From Carboxylicivirga linearis (GTDB taxonomy: Bacteria > Bacteroidota > Bacteroidia > Bacteroidales > Marinilabiliaceae), in the NCBI RefSeq assembly GCF_018271995.1, contig NZ_JAGUCO010000002.1, positions 62,001 to 126,000 on the forward strand: DNA of 64,000 bases. Reading direction: 5' to 3'. Below, one piece after another: positions 41,249-46,050 of this stretch; positions within the stretch are counted from its first letter, which is position 1; the number at the start of each line of letters is the position of its first letter. The translations under genes and the position numbers were made by a program. The notes under the pieces were generated by a model, which made no database searches, was not told the origin of the DNA, and worked only from the letters and a program-made list of their open reading frames with translations.

Positions 41249-41322
41249 GTTAATAGCTATTAGCTTTTTCCTAGCCAAATTGTCATTAAAACATCCCATT
41301 TCTTGCCATTCTGGCTTATCTT

Positions 41323-41330
41323 TATGTTTG
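41323..41330 (+). promoter_or_regulatory. Promoter -7 box for the rhomboid gene
   Basis: TATGTTTG matches TAnnTTTG, with TTG 17 bases upstream (41303-41305). A transcript from here starts near 41337, which fits the ATG at 41381 rather than earlier starts. Confidence 0.4.
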
Positions 41331-41380
41331 GTTTAATAATTGATCAGTTACGGAAAGCTATTCATACTAAAATCAAACAT

Positions 41381-42043
41381 ATGACCAAACCATCAGATAT
41401 AGAACTGAAGAAACTAAAGACGGCTTTGGTTATTCCACTATTCTTTCTGATCATCACCTTTAGCTTAAAACTGATTGAAACTCTCGAAGGCTTTAGCTTT
41501 GTGGAGTGGGGCGTAAGGCCACTTTCTCTCGAAGGTTTACCTGGTATATTATTGGCTCCGTTGATTCATTCCGATTGGGATCACTTTTTTGCCAATGCAG
41601 TTCCGCTGTTTGTTTTGGGGGTGTCACTGTTTTATTTCTATCGTGGAATTTCTGTTAAGGTGTTTATTTATATCTATCTGATGACGGGCTTATGGGTATG
41701 GATGGGAGCGCGCGATGCATGGCACATTGGCGCCAGCGGAGTGATTTACGGTTTGGCAGCTTTTCTATTTGCCAGTGGCTTTTTACGACGTTACATTCCT
41801 TTAATGGCTATTTCGTTGATGGTTGTGTTTTTGTATGGCAGCATGATATGGGGTATCTTTCCATTACAAATGAATGTACCTTACTCGTGGGAGTCGCACT
41901 TATGGGGATCGGTTGCTGGAGCGGCTTTAGCAGTTATTTATCGTAAGCAGGGACCGCAGCGAGTTATTAAAGAATGGCCCGAAGAGGAATATGAATATCC
42001 GTTTTGGGAAGTGGAAGAGAAAAATAAGGAATTGGATTCATGA
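41381..42043 (+). CDS. Rhomboid family intramembrane serine protease
   Basis: A 220-residue membrane protein with six to seven hydrophobic helices. The catalytic serine is in GASGVIYGLAAFL, and the catalytic histidine in SHLWGSVAGAALAV. The upstream pocket HSDWDHFFANAVPLFVLG is the usual first loop (HxxxxHxxxN). It cuts membrane proteins inside the bilayer; the substrate is unknown. The longest frame begins at TTG 41303; ATG 41381 leaves the first helix complete and fits the promoter box. Short palindromic elements lie on both sides of the gene. Confidence 0.9.
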   Translation: MTKPSDIELKKLKTALVIPLFFLIITFSLKLIETLEGFSFVEWGVRPLSLEGLPGILLAPLIHSDWDHFFANAVPLFVLGVSLFYFYRGISVKVFIYIYLMTGLWVWMGARDAWHIGASGVIYGLAAFLFASGFLRRYIPLMAISLMVVFLYGSMIWGIFPLQMNVPYSWESHLWGSVAGAALAVIYRKQGPQRVIKEWPEEEYEYPFWEVEEKNKELDS

Positions 42044-42098: not shown

Positions 42099-42213
42099 TT
42101 AGTAACTCTGAATGGAGATCATCGGATGAAATAATTATTTAATAGATAAGGCACCTTATAATTTGCTTCAATCAAAATCTTTTTTGCATCTTTACACGGC
42201 TTTTAAAAACGGA

Positions 42214-42660
42214 ATGATAAACCGATCAAACATAGAAATAAATTATCTGAGGCTGCTAAGCGTTACCATGATGCTTACAGCTGCATACGTGACCGATGCC
42301 GAAGGGCAGGAGAGTCGCACGCAGGCATTTTATGATGTTCGGGAAATCATACTAGATCAGATTCATCAGATCAATCCATCTTCGGTTGAAGAAGGTATTG
42401 AGTGGGAGATGGCTTTGGAGGTTACTTCTAATCTGAATCAAACATCCGTTTTATATCAATTGCCCGAGGTACAAAACTTCATCCTTGAGGTATTATCAGT
42501 AAAGAAAAAATTACCGACAAATCAATTGATTACAGCTTCTGTTTGTTATGCACAGCAGCAAGTTTGTTATCAACCAATTGAATTTAAAGATGTAAATCAT
42601 CATTCTCAACTTTTGGTATACGATGCAATTCGTCCTGTACGTGCAGGCCCTGGTGCATAA
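42214..42660 (+). CDS. SecM-like secretion monitor / arrest peptide upstream of secA (candidate)
   Basis: A 148-residue exported protein directly upstream of secA. A signal peptide is visible: residues 1-13 with a basic end, hydrophobic LLSVTMMLTAAYV, and a likely cut after Gly31 (DAEG before QES). The mature part has no recognised domain. The last residues are AIRPVRAGPGA: Arg143-Ala144-Gly145-Pro146, two residues before the end. E. coli SecM stalls its ribosome at the same R-A-G-P (Arg163-Pro166), also near its C-terminus and upstream of secA, and secretion of the nascent chain relieves the arrest. The other SecM positions (Phe150, Trp155) are not conserved; hydrophobic LLVY sits there instead. 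The longest frame starts at TTG 42163; I chose ATG 42214. Seen: position, signal, motif. Inferred: stalling and control of secA. Confidence 0.72.
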   Translation: MINRSNIEINYLRLLSVTMMLTAAYVTDAEGQESRTQAFYDVREIILDQIHQINPSSVEEGIEWEMALEVTSNLNQTSVLYQLPEVQNFILEVLSVKKKLPTNQLITASVCYAQQQVCYQPIEFKDVNHHSQLLVYDAIRPVRAGPGA

Positions 42661-42663
42661 CTT

Positions 42664-42742
42664 CCTTTGTGCTCAAGCTATGTTTGAGCGCCATATGATT
42701 CATTATTTTATTTCAAAAAACAATTAAATACTATACAAATGG
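42664..42742 (+). promoter_or_regulatory. Candidate translation-control fold at the secA start
   Basis: GTGCTCAA (42669-42676) pairs with TTGAGCGC (42684-42691) as a clear hairpin. In addition CCTTTGT (42664-42670) could pair with ACAAATGG (42735-42742), which contains the secA ATG, with one bulged base. A ribosome halted at Gly145 would reach to about 42662, next to this helix. This echoes the E. coli secM-secA logic. The second helix is weak and is an inference. Confidence 0.35.
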
Positions 42743-45700
42743 CAATAGCTAAGTTTCTGTCTAAGATTATGGGTAATAAGTCAGACAGAGATATGAAAGA
42801 AGTGGCACCGATTGTGAAGCAAATCAAAGAGGTGTATCCACAAATTGAGAAGTTAACTCATGATGAGTTACGTCAGAAATCACAAGAACTGAAAGCTCAG
42901 ATTCAAGGCGCTATCAAAGCTGATGAAGATAAAATAGCTGATTACAAGAAACAGATTGAAGAAGGAAAGATTGCTGTTTCGGAGCGCGAAAAAATATATA
43001 ACGAAATTGATAAGATAGAGAAGGATATCTTAGTGAAGTTGGAAGATGCCTTAAAAGAAGCCTTGCCAACCGCCTTTTCTATTGTAAAAGATACAGCTCG
43101 TCGTTTAAAAGAAAACGAGACCATTGAAGTAACAGCCAACGATTTCGACCGCGATTTGGCTGCCAGTAAAGATTTTGTTGAGATTAACGGCGATAAAGCT
43201 ACTTATTTTAACTCATGGCTGGCAGGAGGTAACGAAATCACCTGGGACATGGTGCACTACGATGTGCAGCTAATTGGTGGTGTGGTATTGCATAACGGTA
43301 AAATTGCTGAGATGGCAACGGGTGAAGGTAAAACATTGGTGGCTACGTTGCCTGTGTTCCTGAATGCATTAGCAGGCCGTGGTGTACATGTGGTAACCGT
43401 TAACGACTACCTGGCAAAACGTGACTCGGAGTGGATGGGTCCTATCTATCAATTCCACGGTTTATCGGTTGATTGCATCGATAAGCACCGTCCGAATTCA
43501 TCAGAGCGTCGTGCAGCTTACAAGGCAGATATCACCTTTGGTACCAACAACGAGTTTGGTTTCGATTATTTGCGCGATAACATGGCAATCTCGCCTGATG
43601 ATTTGGTACAGCGCGTGCATCATTATGCCATTGTCGATGAGGTTGACTCGGTACTGATTGATGATGCCCGTACTCCGCTGATTATCTCAGGTCCTGTGCC
43701 TAAGGGTGATGATCAGTTGTTTGGAGAGTTAAAACCAAGAATTGAGCAGGTTGTAGATGCTCAAAAGAAACTGGTTACGCATGTTTTAGCTGAGGCTAAG
43801 CAAAAACTGAAATCATCAGACAAAAAAGAGGTTGAAGAAGGCTCGTTACTATTATTACGTGCTTTCAAAGGATTGCCTAAGAATAAGGCTATAATCAAGT
43901 TTTTGAGTGAGCAGGGTATCAAGGCTGGTATGCTGAAAACCGAAAATTACTATATGCAGGAGAACAATAAAAACATGCATATAGTAACCGATCCTTTATT
44001 TTTTGTTATTGATGAGAAAAACAATTCGATAGAGCTTACGGAAAAAGGTCTGGATATGATTACCGGTTCATCCGAAGATCCTGAATTCTTTGTATTGCCG
44101 GATGTAGGTTCAGATATTGCAGCGTTAGAAAAATCAGATCTTCCTGAGGAAGAAAAAACGACTAAAAAGGATGAGATTCTTCAGAACTTCTCCATTAAGT
44201 CGGAACGTGTTCATACCATCAACCAGTTGTTAAAAGCCTATACTTTATTCGAAAAAGATGTAGAGTATGTTGTGATGGACAGCAAGGTAAAAATTGTGGA
44301 TGAGCAAACAGGTCGTATTATGGAAGGTCGTCGTTACTCTGATGGCTTACACCAGGCTATCGAAGCTAAAGAGCGTGTAACGGTTGAGGCGGCAACACAA
44401 ACCTATGCAACCATCACTTTACAGAACTACTTCCGTATGTATCACAAGCTGTCGGGTATGACAGGTACTGCAGAAACGGAAGCAGGCGAGCTTTGGGACA
44501 TCTACGAATTGGATGTGGTGGTAATTCCTACCAATCGTCCTATTCAACGTGATGACCGTGAAGATATTGTTTACAAAACAAAACGTGAAAAATACAATGC
44601 CGTAATTGAAGAAGTTGTTAAGTTAGTTAACGACGGACGTCCGGTATTGGTGGGTACCACATCGGTTGAGATTTCGGAGTTGTTAAGCCGTGCCTTAAAG
44701 ATGCGTGGTATTAAGCACAATGTACTGAATGCGAAAATGCACCAGCGTGAGGCTGAAATCGTGGCTGATGCAGGTCAGGCAGGTATTGTAACCATTGCCA
44801 CCAACATGGCCGGTCGTGGTACCGATATCAAATTAACCAAAGAAGTAAAAGATGCAGGCGGTTTGGCCATTGTGGGTACCGAGCGTCACGAATCTCGTCG
44901 TGTCGATCGTCAGTTGCGTGGTCGTGCCGGTCGTCAGGGAGATCCGGGTTCTTCACAATTCTTTGTTTCGTTGGAAGATGATTTGATGCGTTTATTCGGA
45001 TCAGACCGAATTGTAAAATATATGGACCGTCTTGGTTTGGAAGATGGCGAGATGATTCAGCATAGCATGATCACCAAATCAATCGAGCGTGCTCAGAAGA
45101 AAGTGGAAGAAAACAACTTTGGTATTCGTAAGCGATTATTGGAGTATGATGATGTGATGAACTCGCAACGTGAAGTTATCTACACTAAACGTAAACACGC
45201 TTTATATGGTGAGCGTATACAGGTTGATATTTCAAATATGATGTTAGATACTTGTGCTGATATCGTTGCAGAATATCACGAGAACGGTGATTACGAAGGA
45301 ATGAAGATGGAAATGCTTCGTGTATTCTCTGCTCAGCCACCATTTTCAGAAGAAGACTTCCTGAAAGGAAAAACAGATGATTTGTCGGATGAACTTTTTA
45401 ATAAGATGTGGGATGCTTACATGCGTAAGAGCGAAATGATTGCCAAGCAGGCTCATCCAGTAATCAAAGATGTTTACGAGACAAAATCAGAAATGTATAA
45501 AAACATTGTGGTGCCAATCAGTGATGGACAAAAAGTTTATCAGATTACCACAAATCTGAAAAAGGCTTACGAAACAGAATCAAAAGAACTGGTTCGCTCA
45601 TTCGAAAAAGCATCTATGTTGGTAACTATCGATGATGCCTGGAAAGAGCATTTACGTGAGTTGGATGATTTGCGCACGGCTGTACAAAACGCCAGCTACG

Positions 45701-46050
45701 AGCAAAAAGATCCGTTATTGATTTATAAGTTCGAATCGTTTAACCTGTTTAAGGCAATGATTGGGCGTAATAATAAATCGGTTGTTTCGTTATTGGCTAA
45801 AGGACATATTCCTATTCAGAATGCCGATGGTGTTCACGAAGCGCAGGAGCGCAAGCGTCAGGATTATAGTAAAATGCAAACTCGTAAAGACGAATTCTCA
45901 CGCGGAGGCGGAGGAAACGGTCAGGGAGCACCTAAGAAACCTGAGAAGATTGAACCTGTTAGAGTTGAGAAGAAGGTGGGACGTAATGAGCCTTGCCCAT
46001 GCGGAAGTGGTAAGAAATACAAACAGTGTCACGGTAAAAACGAAGCGTAA
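42739..46050 (+). CDS. secA: Preprotein translocase ATPase SecA
   Basis: A 1103-residue motor protein that drives export through SecYEG. Walker A is [11 protein letters not shown], the DEAD-type box [19 protein letters not shown], then GTAETE and the final helicase motif [18 protein letters not shown]. An inserted segment of about 60 residues after residue 330 (rich in Lys/Glu) gives the long form typical of Bacteroidota. The zinc-binding C-terminus ends in [16 protein letters not shown], which binds SecB or ribosomes. The gene follows the candidate secretion monitor by 78 bases and precedes lgt. Confidence 0.98.

Follow-up and report, generated by a model that had tools for sequence, protein, structure and literature searches.

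The window analysed here is a stretch of 64,000 nucleotides from Carboxylicivirga linearis. At positions 42214-42660 of its plus strand lies a 148-residue open reading frame, referred to below as the uORF, whose translation ends in ...YDAIRPVRAGPGA*. The stop codon of the uORF is separated by 78 nt from secA, which encodes a protein of 1103 aa with Pfam matches to SecA_DEAD (8e-114), P-loop_SecA, SecA_SW, SecA_PP_bind and SEC-C. A gene for a rhomboid-domain protein (41303-42043) is located upstream of the uORF on the same strand. An earlier note on this DNA had described a 148-residue protein without known domain that is encoded before secA and ends in RPVRAGPGA. The translation and the Pfam assignment of SecA confirm this arrangement, and searches of Pfam and NCBIfam with the uORF protein gave no match up to E = 1. 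A predicted model displays no confident fold (mean pLDDT 53.2), and no match was obtained when plasmids were searched for homologues of the uORF. The features considered in the following are:

42174..42195, plus strand: conserved DNA block AAAATCTTTTTTGCATCTTTAC just 5' of the start codon, a possible promoter element (genus comparison)
42214..42660, plus strand: uORF, 148 aa, putative RAGP-type arrest peptide/secretion monitor (homologues before secA in 14/14 genus genomes)
42256..42291, plus strand: putative signal sequence, its hydrophobic core at residues 15-26 with the sequence LSVTMMLTAAYV (Kyte-Doolittle)
42337..42414, plus strand: conserved post-signal segment, residues 42-67, VREIILDQI...IEWEMA, role unassigned (genus alignment)
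42640..42651, plus strand: RAGP motif, Arg143-Pro146 (invariant in 14/14 genus sequences)
42669..42691, plus strand: short predicted RNA hairpin in the gap between uORF and secA (plain fold)
42739..46050, plus strand: secA, the presumed regulated gene (Pfam matches)

For the uORF, an alternative TTG start at 42163 is possible, which would yield a protein of 165 aa. However, the relatives begin where 42214 lies or right next to it, and between 42163 and 42214 no single reading frame is kept. Ahead of the uORF start, a DNA block with the sequence AAAATCTTTT..GCATCTTTAC (42174-42195) was noticed. CATCTTTA is found near the uORF start in 13 of the 14 genus loci (L011 is without it), again with no single reading frame kept. 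The block is possibly a promoter, and it is situated too near the start codon to leave a long leader.

Within the genus, 14 genomes were searched, i.e. the window genome and 13 others, and in each of them a homologue of the uORF is followed by secA. All 14 homologues carry an invariant RAGP, while the region between residue ~70 and the motif (~70-135) aligns poorly. The three closest sequences differ from each other with dN values of 0.14-0.18 and dS values of 0.61-1.35. The resulting dN/dS of ~0.13-0.23 is well below 1. Among the same three sequences the four RAGP codons differ and the encoded residues are identical. In the window protein, two residues follow Pro146.

The comparison was extended to the 71 genomes of the GTDB family, of which 67 yielded a SecA, and 66 upstream regions were examined (G443 was left out, as its secA lies at a contig end). 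At 49 of these 66 loci, which represent 15 of 20 genera, secA is preceded by an ORF ending in RAGP plus 2-10 residues, and the gap between the two genes amounts to 75-417 nt (median 111). Similarity to the window protein can be detected (phmmer, E <= 0.001) for only 15 of the 49 ORFs, namely the 14 of the genus and L058. The uORF, its position, the conservation of the RAGP peptide across the family and the fact that the remainder diverges are direct observations. Such a pattern is what characterizes arrest peptides: four residues at the end are kept, as is a signal, and the rest drifts past recognition. The earlier note had regarded a conserved RAGP in combination with a diverging middle as support for its proposal, and precisely this is seen in 14/14 genus homologues and at 49/66 family loci.

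Could the motif reflect conserved DNA or chance? At the 49 loci, six codons are used for Arg and four each for Ala, Gly and Pro, amounting to 37 distinct 12-mers. Because RAGP was the criterion by which these loci had been chosen, the codon usage can tell no more than that the conservation is one of the peptide and not of the DNA. None of the 363 further ORFs (>=60 aa) at these family secA loci ends in RAGP, and only one of the 112 window ORFs of at least 60 aa contains RAGP, namely the uORF itself.

The 17 family loci without RAGP comprise one with KAGP and 16 that lack such an ORF; among the latter are all four g11 loci and 8 of the 13 that belong to genus g6. The KAGP locus (L083 in genome G028) has a 151-aa ORF before secA that ends in NKAGPLYA, with Lys replacing Arg. 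In SecM and ApdP, the Arg of the motif is reported to be irreplaceable (PMC12992588). At L059, L062, L067 and L068 (genera g11 and g12), where no RAGP ORF is present, secA is instead preceded by an ORF of 337-342 aa whose end is similar (VWFRS...GFRCA).

Outside the family the motif was not encountered. A survey of the GTDB order Bacteroidales, to which the Marinilabiliaceae belong, found SecA in 214 of 218 genomes. Among the matches listed, 85 loci from beyond the family were examined, one or two per family, and at none of them does a RAGP ORF precede secA (0/85). When 393 genomes drawn from the order were searched by profile, the matches below E 0.01 were confined to the window genome and to two weak ones, L042 and L043. 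L042 contains internal stops, and L043 lies inside a frame of 1181 aa.

The uORF protein is probably exported. Where the earlier note had placed a signal peptide, an N-terminal hydrophobic stretch is present, but a weak one: the best 12-residue window, LSVTMMLTAAYV, has a mean Kyte-Doolittle value of 1.66, the lowest of the 49 family ORFs. In the alignment of the 14 genus sequences, the N-terminal columns Y11, V17 and T18 are invariant, and across the family the N-termini look alike by eye (e.g. LLSVTMMLTAA, LLGVTLTVYVA and VLGITLLVTMS). From the hydrophobic core to the Gly of the motif, 118 residues are counted in the window protein and 104-187 (median 119) in the 49 family ORFs. The published screen for RQH peptides demanded that the signal and the arrest site be >30 residues apart (PMC10987492), which all these distances exceed.

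Downstream of the signal, R43-L47, Q49, W64 and A67 are invariant in the alignment of the 14 genus sequences. This segment (residues 42-67, REIIL...Q...W..A) is kept genus-wide and is unexplained if the protein is an arrest peptide. REIIL, Q49, W64 and A67 would be superfluous for a bare arrest peptide, and their conservation would suit a small secreted protein with a periplasmic or surface function of its own, which needs the RAGP end for that function and is only incidentally adjacent to secA. We consider such a protein improbable, because for most genera no similarity can be detected in the region that separates RAGP from the signal (15/49 match the window protein), because what is kept is a RAGP close to the C-terminus and the location ahead of secA, and because neither a domain match nor a confident fold was obtained.

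With E. coli SecM, the uORF protein shares the RAGP near its end, a putative signal sequence and the adjoining secA gene. However, from the SecM motif FxxxxWIxxxxGIRAGP only RAGP is present in the window protein, which has His130 at R-13, Val135 at R-8 and Val at R-1. The earlier claim that contacts of the Phe150/Trp155 type are missing is therefore correct. It applies to most of the family as well, since F occupies R-13 in 3/49 and W occupies R-8 in 1/49 ORFs; the residues upstream of RAGP also differ between the family genera. The identical RAGP, the same place before secA and a similar length (148 vs. 170 codons; 170 according to PMC7897499) would be in line with genuine homology to SecM, the gene having come from Gammaproteobacteria. 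Such an acquisition is hardly credible: at the spacing known from SecM, Phe and Trp are absent from the window protein and rare in the family, and the family N-termini resemble each other. SecM homology was rejected on the missing Phe/Trp when the motif spacings were compared. The earlier note had wavered between an independent and a very diverged secretion monitor; an arrest peptide for the monitoring of Sec export, with an origin apart from SecM, is strongly supported by the conservation within the genus (14/14) and the family (49/66), in combination with the lack of a domain match or a confident fold. As the family presents the same RAGP in ~49 different natural contexts, it may help to ask which tunnel contacts a stall needs.

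Export sensors of this kind, encoded before secA, have been described previously. In 2024, Fujiwara et al. (PMC10987492) published RAPP/RAGP-like uORFs ahead of secA in other bacteria, among them Bacteroidales, and reported for two Bacteroidales groups, uA_RQH_Bacteroidales_1 and uA_RQH_Bacteroidales_2, that they stall ribosomes of B. subtilis in vitro. By its sequence features, the uORF fits the RQH class of these authors: its product is shorter than 300 aa, it is located directly upstream of secA on the same strand, and its RAPP-like C-terminal motif is conserved, as the class demands, in three or more uORFs from the same order (RAGP at 49/66 family loci). It has in common with both groups that a secA uORF without functional annotation encodes an N-terminal signal (putative in the window protein), a spacer of >30 residues and a C-terminal RAPP-like motif. 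uA_RQH_Bacteroidales_2 is of the RAPG type (R102, P104) and matches L124 (see below), in contrast to the RAGP of the window family. Since RAGP was among the search motifs of the RQH screen (PMC10987492), for which public genomes from this group existed, the window family is likely to be already among the candidates in the 2024 supplement. In the literature other than the 2024 supplements, no pairing of Carboxylicivirga or Marinilabilia with arrest peptides was found among the matches listed. The present analysis adds family-wide comparative evidence for a RAGP-type export sensor in Bacteroidota.

Two further known systems can be compared. B. subtilis YwcI is also a small protein with RAGP close to its C-terminus, and stalling at Gly90 of this motif was reported (PMC10987492). 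The gene for YwcI precedes sacT, not a sec gene, whereas the window uORF precedes secA. uA_NSP-stop from Sphingobacteriaceae (PMC10987492) is likewise encoded by a secA uORF in Bacteroidota, but there the final Pro is directly followed by the stop codon, while the family uORFs have 2-10 residues after Pro. Membership in uA_NSP-stop was rejected on the two residues after Pro146.

We regard it as highly probable that the uORF encodes a RAGP-type ribosome-arrest peptide that monitors Sec export for secA. While a ribosome translates the uORF, the putative N-terminal signal would precede the stall site by ~118 residues and thus be outside the ribosome, so that it could engage the Sec machinery. Under working export, a pull on the nascent chain would release the ribosome at once. 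When export is slow, the ribosome would stay and secA, 78 nt further on the same strand, would be expressed more. The stall, the release by pulling and the response of secA are modelled on SecM and the RAPP/RQH peptides. For SecM and RAPP peptides, cryo-EM studies describe a shared mechanism, with its chemistry and with the way in which pulling brings about release (PMC10951299, PMC10951233). In toeprints of SecM, RQH peptides and YwcI, the third residue of the motif was located in the P site (PMC10987492). By this analogy, the Gly145 codon (42646-42648) is predicted in the P site and the codon of the incoming Pro146 (42649-42651) in the A site. The 3' edge of the stalled ribosome would then be about at the uORF stop codon.

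Several points count against an arrest peptide, i.e. the 17/66 family loci without the motif, its absence from the 85 loci outside the family (0/85), the weak hydrophobic stretch, the unexplained conservation of residues 42-67 and the inefficiency of most RAPP-like motifs in published tests. Most RAPP-like motifs that were taken from E. coli and B. subtilis proteins and assayed were reported not to stall efficiently (PMC10987492), and when RAGP was placed into ApdP, translation with the E. coli PURE system mostly ran through to the full-length product (PMC10987492, PMC12992588).

The start of secA is A/T-rich. In the phylum Bacteroidota, Shine-Dalgarno-led initiation is uncommon, which raises the question of how a stall could control secA here. 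Ensemble folding was performed for 48 of the 49 family loci (one was dropped due to a gap of >260 nt). The accessibility predicted for the secA start, compared with and without a stalled ribosome, is the same (0.527 vs. 0.531; mean change 0.005). In the same folding, E. coli secM-secA gave a change of -0.086, so that the known switch was not recovered. As this control failed, the folding test of secA-start masking is void and counts neither way.

A short hairpin is predicted by plain folding in the intergenic region (42669-42691). Such a hairpin looked recurrent in the genus and was rejected as a specific feature, since control gaps fold as strongly: the intergenic z-scores average -2.60 in the genus (n=14) vs. 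-2.90 for 15 other same-strand gaps of the window. When the strongest hairpin was sought at each locus, 2 of the 46 loci listed were without any; the window locus, where the plain fold shows one, is one of these two. A variant of the arrest mechanism would be that the stall acts via RNA stability, transcription attenuation or Rho exclusion instead of unmasking the secA start. The A/T-rich secA start and the practically identical accessibilities predicted with and without a stalled ribosome at the 48 loci would agree with it. We nevertheless judge this variant rather unlikely, as the computation that missed the E. coli secM-secA switch leaves room for unmasking and the intergenic hairpin is no stronger than those of control gaps.

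Different ORFs are found before secA elsewhere in the Bacteroidales. L124 and L132, which belong to one family, have ORFs of 106 and 111 aa that end in KIRAPGE and KIRAPEHA, respectively. These ends resemble the RIRAPN end of PafA-like proteins. The ORFs fit uA_RQH_Bacteroidales_2, with R102 and P104 in agreement (PMC10987492). In other families, PafA-like proteins of ~525 aa with an N-terminal hydrophobic stretch are encoded directly before secA (e.g. L122 and L204; loci drawn from L113-L198 and L199-L227). This is the case at 21 of 85 order loci, and all 21 proteins end in [R/Y]IR[S/P/A]P[N/S/T]. In a second, independent sample of 60 order genomes, the pattern was present, among the 30 loci listed, in 9/9 secA-linked and in 0/21 unlinked PafA-like proteins. 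One unlinked protein, L246, has IRKPD and thus an Arg there. In a comparison of 24 linked with 21 unlinked PafA-like proteins, two Arg residues are specific for the linked ones (22/24 and 24/24), but so are six other positions, and the Arg pattern may therefore be the mark of a clade. The secA-linked PafA-like proteins are possibly large secretion monitors, or they have a clade-specific C-terminus.

Tentatively, and with less than even confidence, we propose that the slot before secA in Bacteroidales has been refilled repeatedly by unrelated exported proteins that might share only a RAPP-like end: a short RAGP protein in the window family, a short RAPG protein in another family and a PafA-like monitor of ~525 aa in many others, with an output independent of Shine-Dalgarno unmasking. 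If this is true, the PafA-like protein would be a monitor of the size of a whole enzyme. It would be longer than anything that two published screens for arrest peptides could find, as these kept only proteins of <300 aa (PMC10987492, PMC12992588). According to the alignment, the linked PafA-like proteins seem to be devoid of the PafA metal-site residues. Since the unlinked L247, encoded in the window genome, is also without the patterns sought, a loss of catalysis does not set the linked proteins apart. At the C-terminal site that corresponds to the linked pattern, the solved PafA has KIQFPSG.
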